From Candidatus Caldarchaeum subterraneum (GTDB lineage: Archaea; Thermoproteota; Nitrososphaeria_A; Caldarchaeales; Caldarchaeaceae), in NCBI GenBank assembly GCA_000270325.1, contig BA000048.1:147476-187040 (forward strand): a stretch of 39,565 bases of DNA, read 5' to 3'. The notes beneath the pieces are model-generated. The model did no database searches. It saw only the letters and a program-made list of their open reading frames with translations, and was not told the DNA's origin. This document shows, in pieces, positions 24,106 through 30,865 of the stretch; position 1 is the stretch's first letter, and each line of letters begins with the position of its first letter. A program made the position numbers and the translations under genes.

Positions 24106-24810
24106 ATGCAGAGAAGGGAGTATGGCCTCGGCCCGGATTGGAGGACCGTGATGAGGTCTCTGGAGAAGCTGGCGCCCATGTATGACAGGTTGAACAAAAC
24201 AATCTCTTTCAACACGGATATTAGGCTCAGGGCTGAATGTCTGAACGGCAACGTTGGTGTGTTGGACAGGGTGCTTGACGCGGGCTCGGGGCCAGGTGTC
24301 TTCACCGAGACACTGCTTAGGACACAGAACTGGAGGGGCGAAGTGGTCATGCTCGACCCCCTACCCAGCATGCATATGCTGGCCCGGAAAAAAGTGCCGC
24401 AAAACATCTCGCATCAGGTCGTGGCTGTTTTTGAGCAGATGCCTTTCCGAGACGGGGTCTTCGATACTGTGTTGATGGGCTTCTCCCTAAGAGACGCGGC
24501 AAACATGGCCAAAGCCCTTACGGAGACCCGGAAAATATTGAGAAAAGGCGGCCGCCTCCTCGTCGTCGACCTCGGCAAACCAGCGAACATCTTGAAAAAA
24601 ATCGCGATAGGCGTCTACTGGGCATTGCTGGCGCCTCTCCTAGCAGCCCTCAAACTGGGTAAAACAGGGCTTGAGGCAGCCGCAATCTACCTAACATACA
24701 GACGGCTGCCGACGAACAAGGAGCTCAAATACCTGTTGAAGACATTTTTTGAGACGGTTGAGGTCGGGGAGAAGATGCTGGGCGGAGTCGTGGTTATTAG
24801 GGCCTGCTGA
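24106..24810 (+). CDS. UbiE/MenG-like SAM-dependent methyltransferase
   Basis: 234 aa. Rossmann methyltransferase with motif I VLDAGSGPGVFTETLL, acidic strand VVMLDPLPSM, the motif-II-like FDTVLMGFSLRDAANMAKAL and ILRKGGRLLVVDLGKPANIL. The N-terminal APMYDRLNKTISFNTDIRLR corresponds to the UbiE signature YD-x-x-N-x-x-x-S-x-G. UbiE/MenG methylates the ring of demethylmenaquinone or a ubiquinone precursor. A quinone or other prenylated aromatic substrate fits the UbiA gene 2 kb downstream, but the two are separated by another gene and I cannot show a shared operon. Confidence 0.8.
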   Translation: MQRREYGLGPDWRTVMRSLEKLAPMYDRLNKTISFNTDIRLRAECLNGNVGVLDRVLDAGSGPGVFTETLLRTQNWRGEVVMLDPLPSMHMLARKKVPQNISHQVVAVFEQMPFRDGVFDTVLMGFSLRDAANMAKALTETRKILRKGGRLLVVDLGKPANILKKIAIGVYWALLAPLLAALKLGKTGLEAAAIYLTYRRLPTNKELKYLLKTFFETVEVGEKMLGGVVVIRAC

Positions 24811-24849: not shown

Positions 24850-26307
24850 ATGGCGAACACCGAGCTGGAGAAAACTCTGTTCCCGACCGGTCATCAAGTC
24901 TTTGACCGAATAGTCTACTTCAGACACGGTATGACGGTGCTTGTCACCGACGAAACCTTCAGCGAAGCCCGAGCATTCCTACGCACACTTTTGAAGAAAC
25001 ACCAACAATCGATTATTGAGCTTGTTTCAACACGCAATCCACAGACAGAGCAAGTTCCCGTCCCAATAGAGGCGCTCCAAGACCTATCAATAAACGTAAA
25101 CCAGAAAAGAAGAGCCGAGAAAAACAGAATATTCATCCACAACTATCTGCCCGAGCTCCTCATACGCCACAACGGAGACGAAGTCCTCAAACTTTTGGAG
25201 ATGTGGCAAAAAGACGTCGCCAACGCCGGAAACCTCGAGTTCTACCTTCTGCCACGCAACACCTTCGCAGACTTCGAGAAAAAAGCCAAAGCAATAGTAG
25301 ACGCCGTAATAGAAATACACGTCGTCAAAGAAAACAACCAGTTCCTCTACTACTTCACACCAATAAGATCCTGCTCACAAGCCCACCACCTCAAAAACAT
25401 ACGATACGAAATCAAAGAAGGACAACTACTAATAGAATGGGAGAACATATTGATAAGCGACCTTCCAGCAGAACCGATTTCACGCAAACAGCTTAGAGAC
25501 CAACTCGAATCAAACGAGGACAGAATATTAATAAAACTGGGGAAGATTGACCCGAGAAATTTCACTGTAGAGGATTATGCTTTGCTCACGTCGCTTGACA
25601 ACATTCGGCTCTTAGACGCCAAGCTTCTTTTCCCAGACAGGTGGCCCGAAGTTTTTGATAAGATTATTGAATGGATATTGGCAGGGGCATTAAAAACCGA
25701 GGAAACAAAACCTGCAAAAAAATACGCGAGACGGCAAAAGCTAAAATTCAAAAATAAACTATTGCTCAACGTTCCAACCCGTCTTTCATTAATGCTGGTT
25801 TCGCTGTCTAAAGGCTTTCTAGGTAAAAGAGTAAGGACCGTACCGCTTGACGCACATCTAGCCGTTTTAGAGGCTGTGAAAAACATAGTGGACATGCTGG
25901 CCTCAGATAGGCCGGAAATTCGACGGGATGCAAGGTTTGCTACCAGATATTTCGGTGAACTTTCCGCTAGAAAAACGGCATTAGAATACATCATGAGGCT
26001 TGAGGGAACCCCCTACACCTCGTTTAGCGTCAAGCACGTTCCCAGCCTAATATCTATCACTCTCAAAGCTGGATGGGGGTTGGATGTAAATTTCATCACA
26101 TCTTCTGGAGAAATTTGGCTTTTTGAGGTGAGAAATTGTCATCTATGCGGGGATGCGGTTAGTGACGAGCCCTTTTGCGACAAATTTGTTTCTAGTGTGG
26201 TCGTCGGTGTACTTTCAGTATGTCTCAAAAGACGATTTGAATGCTTTGAAGTATCCTGCAAAGCTGTTGGAAACGAATCATGCATTTTCAAAGCATATAA
26301 AGTCTAG
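24850..26307 (+). CDS. Degenerate RecA/KaiC-like domain fused to a C-terminal V4R domain
   Basis: 485 aa. The N-terminal 200 residues read like a KaiC-type RecA fold without Walker A: VYFRHGMTVLVTDETFSEAR, the Walker-B-like RIFIHNYLPELLIR, IVDAVIEIHVV and the closing PIRSCSQAHHLKNIRYEIKE, which mirrors the K-R-G...Y-x-I end of KaiC-like proteins. A central helical region follows. The last 90 residues are a V4R (vinyl-4-reductase-like) domain with FEVRNCHLCGDAV, PFCDKFVSSVVVGVLSVCL and FEVSCKAVGNESCIF; its cysteines would bind zinc. V4R domains bind hydrophobic small molecules in sensors and tetrapyrrole or lipid enzymes. The V4R call is fairly firm and the RecA call is inference. The gene runs almost directly into UbiA. 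Confidence 0.7.
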   Translation: MANTELEKTLFPTGHQVFDRIVYFRHGMTVLVTDETFSEARAFLRTLLKKHQQSIIELVSTRNPQTEQVPVPIEALQDLSINVNQKRRAEKNRIFIHNYLPELLIRHNGDEVLKLLEMWQKDVANAGNLEFYLLPRNTFADFEKKAKAIVDAVIEIHVVKENNQFLYYFTPIRSCSQAHHLKNIRYEIKEGQLLIEWENILISDLPAEPISRKQLRDQLESNEDRILIKLGKIDPRNFTVEDYALLTSLDNIRLLDAKLLFPDRWPEVFDKIIEWILAGALKTEETKPAKKYARRQKLKFKNKLLLNVPTRLSLMLVSLSKGFLGKRVRTVPLDAHLAVLEAVKNIVDMLASDRPEIRRDARFATRYFGELSARKTALEYIMRLEGTPYTSFSVKHVPSLISITLKAGWGLDVNFITSSGEIWLFEVRNCHLCGDAVSDEPFCDKFVSSVVVGVLSVCLKRRFECFEVSCKAVGNESCIFKAYKV

Positions 26308-26320
26308 AATGAGGGTAAAA

Positions 26321-27166
26321 ATGAGTAAGTATTTTATTCAAAAGATGATTGGATTCGCTACTCTTCCAAAATCATACTTCTCACTGTTTACATCCACATT
26401 TATGGCTAGTGTAACAATCATGATTATAACTGGAGAAGGACTACTTGATTTATGGGTTTTTTGGCTTTATTTCTTTTTATCCACCGCTTTTCTAAACAGC
26501 TTCAACAACCTGATGGATATTAAATCAGATTACATCACCAAAAATAATTTCCCTCTTCCTTCTGGATTAATTTCCCCAAGGGAAGCTTCACTCTTTTCAG
26601 CCGCAACTCTGATAGCGGCAGTAGCAACACTGATCCCAATTCTGGAGGTAAACGCCTCCGCCGCAGGCATCCTTCTAATTGATTTACTGATTGGATATTT
26701 TTACTCGGCGCCAAAAATTAGGTTAAAGCGATATCCAGTGTTAAAGGCCACGATGCTGATAATTCACACCGCCATTCTACCACTCATAGTCGGATTGACC
26801 TTAGCGAATAAAAGCATTGCCGATTATCTAGCTATTGTTTTTCCCGTTTATCTCATGGGTTTAGCTGTACACACGTTGCAGGACATAGGAGATGTTGTCG
26901 GGGATGTGCTTATGGGAGATAAGACATTTCCATCAATGCTGGGTATGAAGAACTCGGTCCTTCTAACTGTGCTTCTATTCATGCTGGCCGCCATCTTTAC
27001 ATGGCTGGTTTTCGATGCGAGCTACAGGATTTTAATCATGTTTCTCTTCTTTTCACAGATTGTTCTTTCTATGTTGTTGTTTATTCGAGTAAATCTGTGG
27101 AAGATTGTTTATTGGAGCACTGCTCTCATCGCGTTTTTAATTATGGTTTTGCTCCTAGTCAAATGA
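26321..27166 (+). CDS. UbiA-superfamily membrane prenyltransferase
   Basis: 281 aa from ATG 26321, which has gagggt just before it; ATG 26309 is also possible. About eight to nine membrane spans. The first aspartate motif is FNNLMDIKSD (N62, N63, D66, D70), the second QDIGDVVGD (D188, D191, D195), and between them lies YSAPKIRLKRYPVLK. These are the Mg-diphosphate and prenyl-binding signatures of UbiA, MenA, DGGGP synthase and chlorophyll synthase. It transfers a prenyl chain to an aromatic or polar acceptor in the membrane. The acceptor is unknown. It starts 13 nt after the RecA-like/V4R gene. Its sequence is visibly more AT-rich than the flanking housekeeping genes. It ends overlapping the convergent gene by 8 nt. 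Confidence 0.92.
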   Translation: MSKYFIQKMIGFATLPKSYFSLFTSTFMASVTIMIITGEGLLDLWVFWLYFFLSTAFLNSFNNLMDIKSDYITKNNFPLPSGLISPREASLFSAATLIAAVATLIPILEVNASAAGILLIDLLIGYFYSAPKIRLKRYPVLKATMLIIHTAILPLIVGLTLANKSIADYLAIVFPVYLMGLAVHTLQDIGDVVGDVLMGDKTFPSMLGMKNSVLLTVLLFMLAAIFTWLVFDASYRILIMFLFFSQIVLSMLLFIRVNLWKIVYWSTALIAFLIMVLLLVK

Positions 27167-28319
27167 TGTGTGCGTAGCGCATGAGTCTGTCGGGAACCCT
27201 CGCTACCAAAAAGTCGACGAAGTCGGCGGGATTTTTAGATTGGAAAAACCATTTTCGCACGGTGAAGAATCTAAAGACGTTCATGCTTGCGATTAGGCTC
27301 TTTTCATCAAATTCCACATATTTGGCTGCTTGTCTCAATAGGTCTAGGCCTCTTAGGAAATGGAGGTCTCCAAGCCTTATCGTCTGTCTTTTTAGGAAAT
27401 TGTTTTTCAGCGATTCCTCCGGTTTGGTGATGATTGCGAGGTCACGTCCTAAGTAGACGACGCTGTTCCATATTCCTAGTCCAATATCGACGCTGAGGTC
27501 AGCAACATCGTCATAGTAGTTGGATGATTTGAAGACGTAGTCGAATCCTTTTCTTAGGTATCCGAAGCCCTTGATTTCTTCTTTAGTTCTTTCGCATAAA
27601 CTTTCTAGCATGCATAAATCGAGTCCTACCCACACTCTTCCAACACCTTTCTCATTCATGTTTTTCAGGTAGTCACGAATCGTCAGTTTTTCGCGGTCAA
27701 TACTGTTCTGCTGTTTAAAAGTCGCGCCTTGTCCAGAAATGTAGAGTGCAAGGTCTCTTAGGAACTCTTTTCTCGCTGTTAATATTGTGTCGGGAAGGCT
27801 TTTCAGCCATTTGTTGACAAGTAGCGCCAATAATGTGCATGAGTTTTCGGCTCGTTTGACTATGTCGTTGTTTCCTGCGGAGATGTATATTCCTTCTTCT
27901 ATGGCTTTTTTCTGTCTTTGTAGCGATTGTTCGGCTTCTTCGGTTGTGTGGAAGGTGTCGTTGATGTTGTCGAGCACCTTTATGCTGATTATTAGAGCCA
28001 TTTTTGCGAGGACTGTTGAGAATATTTGTGCCCTTGTTGCTTTTTTGTGTAGCAGTGGATAGGCGGAGATGGTTGCCATGTATGATGAATAGGGTAGGTA
28101 CTTCTTTTTCATGACGCCGAGGTCCATCAATTCCTGGAGGCTGGCTGTCTCCTCTCCCCCCAGTATGTTTTCCATGGTTTTGCCGAAATAGTCGGATGCT
28201 TCGCGGATGATGCAGAGCATCTCAGACAGGTTTCGCCTGTTCCCGGCTATGTATCGCAGCATCACAAGGCCCGCGGCTTTTGTAAAATAGTCTAACCCCT
28301 CCCCACTATTCTGGGTCAT
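27159..28319 (-). CDS. Class I isoprenoid-synthase-like protein
   Basis: 386 aa, almost entirely helical. Two acidic motifs lie at the right spacing for a trans-prenyl synthase or terpene synthase fold: VLDNINDTFHT (D117, D121) in mid-protein and SNYYDDVADLSVDIGLGIWN (D270, D271, D274, D278) about 150 residues later. In known enzymes paired Asp-rich motifs hold Mg-diphosphate. Neither motif is a perfect DDxxD, and I see no clear chain-elongation signature, so it could be a synthase, cyclase or head-to-head condensing enzyme. It lies tail-to-tail with the UbiA gene (8-nt overlap), which supports prenyl-lipid metabolism. The assignment is by motif and helix pattern only. Confidence 0.55.
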   Translation of the reverse strand: MTQNSGEGLDYFTKAAGLVMLRYIAGNRRNLSEMLCIIREASDYFGKTMENILGGEETASLQELMDLGVMKKKYLPYSSYMATISAYPLLHKKATRAQIFSTVLAKMALIISIKVLDNINDTFHTTEEAEQSLQRQKKAIEEGIYISAGNNDIVKRAENSCTLLALLVNKWLKSLPDTILTARKEFLRDLALYISGQGATFKQQNSIDREKLTIRDYLKNMNEKGVGRVWVGLDLCMLESLCERTKEEIKGFGYLRKGFDYVFKSSNYYDDVADLSVDIGLGIWNSVVYLGRDLAIITKPEESLKNNFLKRQTIRLGDLHFLRGLDLLRQAAKYVEFDEKSLIASMNVFRFFTVRKWFFQSKNPADFVDFLVARVPDRLMRYAHII

Positions 28320-28351: not shown

Positions 28352-29104
28352 TTAGATAACTTTCTCGGTTGGATACACCTCTAATCCGCCGATTACAAAT
28401 TTATAGGGATGAGGCTCCACGTCGTGGTCTACTCCCCTCATTTTTTCGATTTGAATCGAGCTGGCTACAGTCCCGTCCTTGAGATATTTTCTAAGTATTA
28501 TTACGCCGTCAGCTAGGTATTCCTCGAACTGGTATGGCCTTTCGGCGCCGCTGTACCTTAGCTCTGTCAGCAACAGGGTGGTGCATCTTAACGGTGTTAT
28601 TCCCTCCAACAGCTCAAGGAACGCGGCCCTTCTCTCCGCAACCCGTGGATACTGGATGAAGAAGGATGTTAGGGAGTCTATGACAAGCCTTTTCGCGTTA
28701 ATGTTTTTCACGTGGTTTCCGACGGCCGCTATCAGGGCAGCGAGCGAGAAATCTTTTTTACCGATGGATATGCCGCCGAGCTTTATCTCACCCGGTATCG
28801 TCCTAATAGGTGAGGCGTCAACTATCGCTAATCTTCCTTCTTTTACAAACGGCTCCAAGTCGATGCCGAGGTTTGACACGTTTCTAAAAACGCTTGCAGG
28901 CCTCTCATCAAGAGTCACGTACACACCATTCTCCCCTTTCAGGCAGCCGTGATACAGGAACTGGAGGCCTAGGGTGGTTTTTCCAGAACCAGGGGAGCCC
29001 ATCACCACGATGTTGAACCCGGCGGGGAACCCTTTATTGTTTAGGAGAGTGTCAAGGCCGCTGACGCCGGTGCTTACATACTCCATGCTTTCTCCGTTGC
29101 TCAC
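28352..29104 (-). CDS. KaiC-like RecA-superfamily ATPase
   Basis: 250 aa from GTG 29104; ATG 29086 is preceded by ggagaa and is a good alternative. A single KaiC domain: STGVSGLDTLLNNKGFPAGF, Walker A GSPGSGKTT (36-44), the catalytic glutamate in VYVTLDERPASVF, Walker B RLVIDSLTSFFI, and the closing IEKMRGVDHDVEPHPYKFVI. Archaeal single-domain KaiC-like proteins are signalling or regulatory ATPases of mostly unknown function. The GTG lies about 27 nt from gatataaaac, supporting a leaderless start. It is intact, unlike the RecA-like domain of the V4R fusion nearby, which hints that the two could interact. Confidence 0.9.
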   Translation of the reverse strand: MSNGESMEYVSTGVSGLDTLLNNKGFPAGFNIVVMGSPGSGKTTLGLQFLYHGCLKGENGVYVTLDERPASVFRNVSNLGIDLEPFVKEGRLAIVDASPIRTIPGEIKLGGISIGKKDFSLAALIAAVGNHVKNINAKRLVIDSLTSFFIQYPRVAERRAAFLELLEGITPLRCTTLLLTELRYSGAERPYQFEEYLADGVIILRKYLKDGTVASSIQIEKMRGVDHDVEPHPYKFVIGGLEVYPTEKVI

Positions 29105-29125
29105 GCTTTTTATGATTGTAAGAAT

Positions 29126-29141
29126 GATATAAAACTTAAAC
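29126..29141. promoter_or_regulatory. Divergent promoter between the KaiC-like and presenilin-like genes
   Basis: The 55-bp gap holds gatataaaac followed by ttaaac. Read on the minus strand, gttttatatc lies about 27 nt from the GTG at 29104. On the plus strand, cttaaac lies about 25 nt from the ATG at 29160. Both genes would be leaderless and share this segment. Confidence 0.5.
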
Positions 29142-29159
29142 CCATCCATAAGCATAGAG

Positions 29160-29993
29160 ATGTGTCCCGTGGGTTTGCGAAGGTACCTAGTGGCGGTATA
29201 TCCTGTTTTGCTGACTATGGTATTGGCCATGGTGTTTCAGGCACTGTTTGCCGGCGTGATGTTGCCTCAGCCTCCGTTGACGCCTTTGGAGGAAGAGGGT
29301 GACGACGTTGCTGTTCTGGGTTCTCCCGCGCCCTATCTAAACAGCCTTCTTGTCATAGCGGTTATGTTTCTAGGAAGCCTTGCTATGCTCTGGCTTATAC
29401 GGTTCCGCAGAGCCCTCGCCGTCATCGTTTCCGTGGTTCTCTTCACAACAGCGGTTTCTGTAACTTTTCTGTTACTATTTGTTTCGACGAGTCTGGGCGA
29501 GGAGCTGCTTGCGGCTGTATCAATACTGGTTGGTGGGATGGTTTTGGCGGGTGTGTTTTCGAGGAAGGGTTTGTTTAACGTGTTGGCCGCCGCTTATGTG
29601 GCTTCGGCGAGCGGCGTGGTTTTCGGGTCTTCTCTACCCTTCTGGACCTCGCTCGTCCTGCTAGCAGCTGTTTCTGTTTACGACGTGGTCGCGGTCTTCA
29701 AGGGGCATTTGAAGAGACTTGGAGACATGGATATGGCGGAGTTGAGAGGGCTTGTTGTGACTTTTGAGGGCTTCAGCATAGGGTTGGGCGACCTCTTCTT
29801 CTACTCTGTTGTCCTAAGCTTCTCGGTGAACAACCTCGGCTGGCTGCCTGGAATAGCCGCCTCCGCCGGCCTCATCGTCGGCTACCTCGCGACCATCAAG
29901 CTTGCCGAGACAAGGCCCGTTTTCCCCGGGTTACCGCTCACCCTACTGGCCGCGATGGGCTTCGCATTCATCAGCTACCTCATACCGGTGTGA
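29160..29993 (+). CDS. Presenilin/signal-peptide-peptidase-type intramembrane aspartyl protease
   Basis: 277 aa with nine hydrophobic spans. The catalytic YD is in VSVYDVVAVFKGH (D175), GxGD in FSIGLGDLFFYS (D211), and the PAL-like motif in FPGLPLTL (256-262). These define the presenilin homologue family, which cuts substrates inside the membrane. A charged loop (PLEEEGDDV) follows the first span. The archaeal substrates are unknown; clearing signal-peptide remnants is the usual guess. The stop TGA overlaps the next gene's GTG (GTGA), so the two are translationally coupled, an unexpected pairing. Confidence 0.92.
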   Translation: MCPVGLRRYLVAVYPVLLTMVLAMVFQALFAGVMLPQPPLTPLEEEGDDVAVLGSPAPYLNSLLVIAVMFLGSLAMLWLIRFRRALAVIVSVVLFTTAVSVTFLLLFVSTSLGEELLAAVSILVGGMVLAGVFSRKGLFNVLAAAYVASASGVVFGSSLPFWTSLVLLAAVSVYDVVAVFKGHLKRLGDMDMAELRGLVVTFEGFSIGLGDLFFYSVVLSFSVNNLGWLPGIAASAGLIVGYLATIKLAETRPVFPGLPLTLLAAMGFAFISYLIPV

Positions 29994-30865
29994 AAACGAT
30001 GTCGCCGGAGGATGCCGCAAGATGCTGCACACTCGGTCTATTGCTCGAGCTCGCCACCTCACCAAAACCCGGTCTCGTTGACAGACTCTCTAACCCAGAT
30101 GTTTATGCATGTTTCACCGCATCCGCAGTCGCCCTTTATCCATGTTTCCTGAAAGCGGCCCAAGGCACGTCTGTGGGAGACGCTGTGCTCTGCTCAACCC
30201 GTGAGATGATGAGCTGGCAGAAAGGAGGAAACACACATCTCGGAAGCCTTCTGCTGCTAACGCCCATCGCGAAAGCAGCCGTCGAAGCAGGGAAAATCGA
30301 GAGATTACGCGGCAGCTTGGAGAAAACGCTCAAGCAAATGGATTACAGGGATTTGCATAAGATTTTGAAGGCTATCAAGATGGTTGGGCCCGGTGGATTA
30401 GGAAAAGTCGCATACCTTGACGTCAACAACGCCAAGACATACAACTTGGTGAAGCAGCGGAAGACCTCAGTCATCGAGGCCTTCAACCCCTACGCCCAGT
30501 GGGAGGTCGTTGCCCACGAGTACTGCACAAACTATCAAGCAAGCATCATGCATGGTTACATGTTTCTTAGAAAAAGAATAGAGCAAGAGGACTGGAACAC
30601 AGCGGGGATAAACACTTTCCTAAACATTTTACAGCATCTCCCCGACAGCCACGTATCACGCAGACAAGGCAGACATGCTGCGAAAATTCTCTCCCGAATG
30701 GCTAAGCAGGTTCTCGATGCAGGAGGAGTAGGCACCGAGGAGGGCGGCCGCAGATACACACAGTTCATTAAACACGTTAAGAGAGCGGGAATGAAGCCGG
30801 CCGCGGCCGCAGACGTGCTGGCTGTATCCTACACCCTGCTTCTGCTAAGTGGCTGGAGACCCTGA
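29990..30865 (+). CDS. CitG-family triphosphoribosyl-dephospho-CoA synthase-like protein
   Basis: 291 aa. The CitG signatures are visible: TSPKPGLVDRLSNPDVYACF at the N-terminus and KGGNTHLGSLLLLTPI near residue 80, then MVGPGGLGKVAYLDV and VVAHEYCTNYQASIMHG. CitG/MdcB joins ATP and dephospho-CoA to make the prosthetic-group precursor of citrate or malonate decarboxylating enzymes. No citrate lyase or malonate decarboxylase genes are seen here, so the archaeal member probably serves another nucleotide or cofactor reaction. It starts with GTG inside the presenilin-like stop. The pair likely forms an operon. Confidence 0.88.
   Translation: MKTMSPEDAARCCTLGLLLELATSPKPGLVDRLSNPDVYACFTASAVALYPCFLKAAQGTSVGDAVLCSTREMMSWQKGGNTHLGSLLLLTPIAKAAVEAGKIERLRGSLEKTLKQMDYRDLHKILKAIKMVGPGGLGKVAYLDVNNAKTYNLVKQRKTSVIEAFNPYAQWEVVAHEYCTNYQASIMHGYMFLRKRIEQEDWNTAGINTFLNILQHLPDSHVSRRQGRHAAKILSRMAKQVLDAGGVGTEEGGRRYTQFIKHVKRAGMKPAAAADVLAVSYTLLLLSGWRP

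Follow-up and report, generated by a model that had tools for sequence, protein, structure and literature searches.

Class I bacterial terpene synthases are defined by their DDxxD and NSE/DTE motifs, and squalene/phytoene synthases carry two DxxxD motifs. A gene whose product is predicted to share the fold of the class I enzymes is found in the single contig, 1,680,938 bases long, which makes up the genome (G000) of the archaeon Candidatus Caldarchaeum subterraneum; the stretch analysed, hereafter the window, is 39,565 nucleotides long and corresponds to G000:C1:147476-187040. The gene lies at 27159..28319 of the window, on the minus strand, starts with ATG and encodes 386 amino acids (aa); its product is called here the synthase, on the basis of a fold model, structure matches and conservation. 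Motifs of another kind, DYLDNLxD and DY(F,L,W)IDxxED, are carried by the class IB ('large') terpene synthases, according to section 5.2 of PMC7839719. Close to the synthase gene lies that of a conserved partner protein ending in a V4R-like domain; a passage of PMC2253512 describes V4R domains as thought to bind hydrophobic ligands, signalling in cis or in trans. On balance, we favour the reading that the protein encoded at 27159-28319 is a class I isoprenoid synthase, divergent and probably active, and that the partner binds what it makes.

An earlier note, made from the letters of this DNA alone, had described an open reading frame (ORF) for an all-helical protein with two aspartate motifs about 150 residues apart. 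The frame is real and the residue numbers given for it hold. Motif 1 covers residues 114-121 (K-V-L-D-N-I-N-D; 27957..27980, minus strand), includes D117 and D121 within VLDNINDTF, and takes the form K[VLIAT]LDN[IL]xD in the family. Motif 2 covers residues 269-286 (YDDVADLSVDIGLGIWNS; 27462..27515, minus strand), with D270, D271, D274 and D278 falling within NYYDDVADLSVDIG; its family form is [YW]DDxxDxx[E]D, followed by NS. D117 and D270 are 153 residues apart. The canonical DDxxD, NSE/DTE and FARM/SARM motifs are absent: where section 5.2 of PMC7839719 defines canonical class I cyclases by DDxx(D,E) and NSE/DTE, DNxND and DDxxDxxxD are found instead. The description of both motifs as non-canonical is correct as regards DDxxD and NSE; the motifs are not wholly unprecedented, since those of class IB, as given in that section, are similar.

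Conservation was evaluated on an alignment of 34 sequences, composed of the 28 of alignment A2, where identity to the window synthase is as low as 25%, and 6 more, the window's own included. Invariant in all 34 are P88, L90, K106, K114, L116, D117, N118, D121, D189, Q197, G227, W230, D234, F263, D270, D271, D274, D278, S286, R350, F352 and R355. K71 and K73 are kept in 33 sequences, K224 and K264 in 32 and N285 in 30, while residue 277 is E in 24 and V in the window protein. Since seven motif residues (D117, N118, D121, D270, D271, D274, D278) are kept in 34/34, the motifs are not due to chance; as the alignment includes near-copies (L016 and L048, for example), the 34 sequences do not stand for 34 independent events.

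The AlphaFold2 model of the synthase, built on the 28 sequences of A2, is all-helical, as had been anticipated, with pLDDT 92.8 and pTM 0.92. Likeness to isoprenoid synthases had also been proposed, with comparison to class I terpenoid-synthase folds set beforehand as its test, and the predicted fold matched. Foldseek searches against PDB gave Sat1646 (7e4n) as the best match, at E 1.3e-5; the title of its sister entry, 7e4o, reads class I pimarane-type diterpene synthases. Seven of the 566 matches have E <= 0.001, and each of them is a terpene synthase judging from title or name, and the best 50 of the 566 are terpene or prenyl synthases on the same basis. In a second structure comparison (VIA), Sat1646 was aligned over 276 residues with Z 22.2 and a root mean square deviation of 3.2, and the best 50 of 998 aligned chains, with Z ranging from 22.2 to 19.3, again consist of terpene or prenyl synthases, judging from titles or names. 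Some of the top rows bear only abbreviated titles (Sat1646, SVS_A2, TEAS, HEPS2), which we take to denote synthases. Z reaches 8 or more for 854 of the 998 chains; five mostly helical models without a clear match, used as a yardstick, had a typical best Z of only 14, and for this reason a Z of 22 combined with a uniform list of synthases was judged to be well above that level. Sat1646 and tolypothrichol synthase (9kgb), the best structural matches with Z 22.2 each, are only 8 and 10% identical to the synthase.

In the model, motif 1 is located at the C-terminal end of helix 96-123, while D270 and D271 terminate helix 246-273 and D278 falls in the next short helix. Class I terpenoid synthases carry their metal sites at the C-terminal ends of long helices. 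Judged on the predicted model, the protein falls within the class I superfamily, with its all-alpha terpenoid-synthase fold, and almost certainly has that fold.

The place of the synthase within the class I enzymes is less clear-cut. It may belong with the class IB (large-terpene, DUF2600/YtpB) synthases, as an archaeal branch of these that converts a long prenyl diphosphate into a linear or cyclic terpene, and we regard this class IB assignment as a serious candidate, somewhat short of an even chance. The class I fold is shared with class IB (BalTS/YtpB, PF10776 DUF2600) across about 307 residues: 5yo8 gave Z 21.9 over 307 and 6loo Z 21.8 over 308, among the longest alignments listed. The 5yo8 motifs, DYLDNLCD (88-95) and DYFIDQEED (252-260), have the skeletons LDN[LI]xD and DxxxDxx[E]D in common with the synthase (DxxxDxxxD, with E277 in 24/34), and an Asn at +7 from the last Asp is found in both class IB sequences, as in 30/34 here (N285). 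Neither published class IB motif is found in full: in DYLDNLxD the LDN[LI]xD part is retained, but the first Asp is Lys (K114) in 34/34, and in DY(F,L,W)IDxxED the three Asp are retained, with E in 24/34, but the Tyr is Asp in 34/34. Other differences are the archaeal origin of the synthase, its linked partner gene and its lack of Pfam and profile matches. PF10776 does not recognise the window synthase and exceeds its cut-off in none of 398 genomes of the phylum, with one match below cut-off; the controls behave as expected, Bacillus subtilis giving a match and L119 an E of 5.9e-152. A hidden Markov model (HMM) of the family scores -1.2 and -1.9 bits on two class IB proteins.

Short motif blocks taken from the synthase family, selected after the published class IB motifs were known, peak exactly at those motifs in four cases out of four (two blocks, two class IB sequences); a long motif-2 block does so in 2/2, but a long motif-1 block is off register in 2/2. 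The scores themselves do not stand out: among 1421 background ORFs, those reaching the same score number 15 (BalTS) and 184 (Anoxybacillus) with the short motif-2 block, 460 and 79 with its motif-1 counterpart, and 81 and 197 with the long motif-2 block. The synthase is thus class I-like, with class IB-like motifs, yet it falls outside class IB by the strict tests of membership; its motifs resemble those of class IB, family homology not being demonstrable by profile. As a separate observation, a short ORF in a Calothrix plasmid (L118:2186-2656; AP018277.1), which shares about 60% identity with the N-terminal 113 residues of a tetraprenyl-beta-curcumene synthase, is apparently a class IB gene fragment in a cyanobacterium.

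Synthase matches were found in 11 of 61 genomes of close kin and in 16 of the 398 genomes of the phylum, the window's own genome being counted in both. A scan of the genomes of 84,980 species revealed 27 relatives among 182 pattern-matching stretches, all in archaea-titled records; the scan was confined to two short peptide patterns, and bacterial relatives may have escaped it. The sources are Caldarchaeum, HR01, Bathyarchaeota, Hecatella, Terraquivivens, Nitrososphaerales, one Methylarchaceae genome, Thaumarchaeota and two Theionarchaea. The latter carry two copies each and are the only genomes with a synthase among the 115 of their phylum. A copy 93% identical to the window's is contained in a Candidatus Caldarchaeum subterraneum record.

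The partner gene, an addition to what the earlier note had described, lies at 24850..26307 on the plus strand and encodes 485 aa: a KaiC-like domain without Walker A, a middle region and a V4R-like domain. In an all-against-all comparison of the ORFs from 27 loci and the window, it is the most widely shared other protein (20/28), followed by a HAD family (12). A partner profile, A3, was searched in the same 398 genomes as the synthase: any match occurs in 116, while full-length matches (E <= 3.6e-132) occur in exactly the 16 which bear a synthase. Among the matches listed, the others cover the V4R end only, except for a Caldarchaeum paralogue (three genomes) and a weak match of the KaiC part (G095). 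In all 16 genomes the partner gene is downstream of the synthase gene on the same contig, at 43-1380 nucleotides measured between matched ranges (43-161 in 8 genomes, 864-1380 in 8), on the same strand in 9 and in convergent orientation in 7. Of twelve further genomes, chosen for having a synthase, 9 contain the partner. It is whole in 7, including those of L018 and L035, where it lies on another contig than the synthase, and shortened in 2 (G405, starting at model position 69; G403, at a contig end, where just the final 67 positions are present).

The partner model has pLDDT 85.4. Residues 4-200 (24859..25449, plus strand) match the KaiC C1 domain with Foldseek E 5.3e-9 and KaiC 8dba with Z 17.8, which places them, on the predicted model, in the KaiC/RecA fold; the Walker A P-loop pattern, however, is found in none of 19 partner sequences, a difference from KaiC-family proteins. 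Residues 425-482 (26122..26295, plus strand) match Pfam V4R with E 2.8e-5 and 24.5 bits, below the 31-bit cut-off, and C430, C433, C443, C470 and C478 are invariant in the 19 aligned sequences; its V4R-like C-terminus with cysteines makes the partner a candidate V4R-domain protein. The middle region may be a winged helix, which is an impression only. A pairing of V4R/KaiC proteins with a synthase was not found in the literature searched. The window's genome contains a partner paralogue (L156:6051-7457, plus strand; G000:C1 about 1256550-1257956), whose V4R score of 33.8 bits is above cut-off. It is located between two Proton_antipo_M (complex I / Mrp type) genes on the opposite strand and has no synthase relative beside it, the genome having only one synthase.

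Within the window, a UbiE-like methyltransferase gene (24106..24810, plus strand; Ubie_methyltran E 3e-20) ends 39 bases upstream of the partner gene, and homologues are found near the synthase-partner pair in L012, L013 and L014. A UbiA-family prenyltransferase gene lies between partner and synthase (26309..27166, plus strand; UbiA E 6.4e-25, 88.3 bits, as scored on a longer ORF from 26153, the start being read from the sequence). Its ATG is one base past the partner stop and its end overlaps that of the synthase ORF by 8 bases. The common strand of the UbiE-like, partner and UbiA genes, with gaps of 39 bases and 1 base, suggests that they form a single transcript. Beyond the synthase, at 28352..29230 on the minus strand, an intact KaiC-family ATPase is encoded, with Walker A GSPGSGKT (KaiC E 4.2e-57). 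KaiC-family genes also occur near the synthase or the pair in L021, L037, L099, L106, L108 and L109, and are possibly partners of the P-loop-less KaiC domain. Further on are a presenilin / signal-peptide-peptidase-like membrane protein (29160-29993, plus strand; Pfam E 1.9e-8 and 4.2e-6) and a CitG-type triphosphoribosyl transferase homologue (29990-30865, plus strand; E 1.2e-58).

In the 8 of 16 genomes where room is left between the pair, the intervening gene is a UbiA in four (G000, G002, G003, G005), a HAD phosphatase in three (G122, G163, G168) and a geranylgeranyl-reductase-family flavoprotein in one (G229). Elsewhere, UbiA directly follows the synthase gene in the two Theionarchaea (weakly MenA-like in the one tested) and follows the partner in a Nitrososphaerota contig; a reductase lies between the pair in a Bathyarchaeota contig, and HAD phosphatases of at least two subfamilies are near the pair in other genomes, some of which have a small intervening gene. 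Counted across the 34 family rows, HAD is nearby in 18, UbiA in 7 and geranylgeranyl reductase in 2, at least one of the three being present in 27. These labels follow the family tree, a few of whose deep joins may be long-branch artefacts, though not as single events: UbiA requires at least 2 changes and HAD 4. Small hydrophobic-looking proteins are encoded between partner and HAD in Nitrososphaerales-type loci (L029:4545-5108, L030:9771-10334, L031:3234-3812, L033:6034-6768); by eye they may recall carotenoid-cyclase-type membrane proteins, and the two tested (L030, L033) have no Pfam/NCBIfam match at E <= 0.01. A Theionarchaea locus (L034:1382-5398) contains the synthase followed by UbiA, a SpoIIM-family protein, a protein without assignment and a family 2 glycosyltransferase.

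The UbiA genes are central to a second explanation, that the synthase is of the trans-prenyltransferase type, elongating or condensing prenyl chains, and that the UbiA next to it receives from it a special prenyl diphosphate, used for instance in making a quinone or lipid. We consider this possible, at somewhat lower odds than the class IB assignment. UbiA adjoins the locus in the Caldarchaeum relatives, the two Theionarchaea and one Nitrososphaerota; the UbiE-like methyltransferase of the Caldarchaeum group and the position of the partner paralogue between two complex-I-type antiporter genes point the same way. Trans-prenyl diphosphate synthases (PF00348) also share the fold (Z about 20; 4lob Z 20.8) and have Asp motifs at helix ends, but they differ in their DDxxD motifs and in their HMM match. 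A PF00348 match combined with DDx2-4D was not found: the window protein has no match at E <= 1, and 1 of the 28 members gives E 0.061. Most members, moreover, are accompanied by HAD rather than UbiA, and the genome already has two PF00348 enzymes. It also has five other UbiA genes and one PF00494 gene. Comparison with 23 PF00348 proteins, archaeal geranylgeranyl diphosphate (GGPP) synthases, by hhalign gave a probability of 0.3%.

Among proteins outside the family, it is mostly GGPP synthases that rank highest with the family HMM, and 32 GGPP synthase-like ORFs outscore 342 length-matched ORFs (Mann-Whitney p 2e-14). In our judgement this does not make them the nearest sequence relatives: none scores above 7.7 bits, the 32 include many that are closely related to each other, and their 'S.GQ..D' region is set against model residues 212-283, past the family's own GQ. 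As to squalene/phytoene synthases, two DxxxD motifs are present (D117-D121, D270-D274), a feature which is not specific; PF00494 matches neither the window protein nor the 28 members, and no such enzyme is among the best 50 structure rows, which excludes nothing. The genome's own PF00494 gene is located away from the synthase; at G000:C1 about 555384-559026 (L053, L055, L116), a PF00494 synthase, a UbiA and a PF00348 gene are close together, in a group looking like a carotenoid cluster separate from the synthase locus.

A third explanation, by which the synthase would be a non-catalytic class I fold serving as regulatory or scaffold subunit of the partner, draws on the strong linkage to a sensor-like protein whose KaiC domain has lost its own P-loop and on the non-canonical motifs, but is quite improbable, because a dead subunit would need no invariant metal-site Asp, Lys or Arg, whereas all the metal-site Asp and several Lys/Arg stay unchanged in 34/34, with A2 members down to 25% identity, and because three genomes have the synthase without the partner.

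Several results weigh against an active synthase with a product-binding partner. No known synthase shows significant similarity to it in sequence. The window synthase matches no Pfam or NCBIfam family above curated cut-off, in line with the lack of family signatures remarked upon in the earlier note, and the 28-sequence profile searched against PDB gave an empty result at E <= 10. Besides the low value obtained with GGPP synthases, hhalign of the synthase family against one class IB sequence gave a probability of 0.5%, and the first Asp of the class IB motif 1 is replaced throughout, as described above. The partner is absent in 3 of 28 synthase genomes, namely those of the two Theionarchaea and of a thaumarchaeon from groundwater. 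In 7 of the 34 rows (L015, L018, L025, L027, L028, L035, L037), of which L018, L035 and L037 reach a contig end, no neighbour of the three types is found; and since HAD phosphatases are common genes, their nearness alone is weak evidence. A fold in common, finally, is no proof of function.

Some other matches were set aside. For the window synthase, Pfam matches to EMC4 and Sterile are weak, below curated cut-offs or not used; single A2 members gave MS_C at E 0.005, Terpene_syn_C_2 at E 0.0096 and polyprenyl_synt at E 0.061, among matches to 17 families, all weak and unused; and the one phmmer match in PDB, a nucleolar protein at E 0.03, was rejected as insignificant. No match to the synthase was found by tblastn in plasmids and phages, and no relative among the 64 stretches of viral contigs which fit the synthase pattern. 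Scans for bacterial-type promoters and terminators gave results at chance level.

The gene family, its conservation, predicted fold, linkage and neighbours were computed; from them we infer catalysis, substrate, product and the role of the partner. The synthase is probably catalytically active. Mg2+ would be coordinated by D117/D121 and D270/D274/D278 at the mouth of the helical bundle, and the invariant Lys and Arg would bind diphosphate. The enzyme would ionise a prenyl diphosphate, probably C20 or longer, and its product would be a terpenoid or a prenylated compound. The partner would bind this hydrophobic product through its V4R-like domain, passing it along or reporting it, and UbiA, geranylgeranyl reductase, methyltransferase or HAD phosphatase may process it onward, varying by lineage. 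That the partner is a dedicated receptor or carrier is put forward only tentatively. With similar reserve, the locus may be imagined as an archaeal terpenoid module, in which a class IB-like synthase produces a terpenoid, either diffusible or located in the membrane, and the pseudo-KaiC/V4R protein is the dedicated receptor or carrier of that terpenoid, the two proteins being inherited together. Synthesis and sensing or channelling of one terpenoid would then form a unit, with lineage-specific tailoring enzymes added, spanning Caldarchaeum relatives, Terraquivivens, Nitrososphaerales-type archaea and Bathyarchaeota.

The fold and the general chemistry are known, and no description was found of the synthase family, its motif set or the partner. 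In a literature search of partial coverage no paper was found on the family, on archaeal class IB-like synthases or on terpene synthases partnered by a V4R/KaiC protein, and the part of PMC10563020 consulted has nothing on archaeal synthases. The occurrence of the synthase with a close partner of hydrocarbon-binding type in most genomes points to an undescribed isoprenoid pathway, and the UbiA, UbiE-like, reductase and phosphatase genes are nominated as steps of one pathway. The near-constant partner joins a degenerate KaiC fold to isoprenoid metabolism and offers a handle on the ligands of V4R domains, described in the literature as poorly understood. If the synthase is active, uncultured archaea hold class I isoprenoid synthases missed by motif- and HMM-based mining, and terpenoid chemistry other than that of membrane lipids and carotenoids could be tested directly in them.

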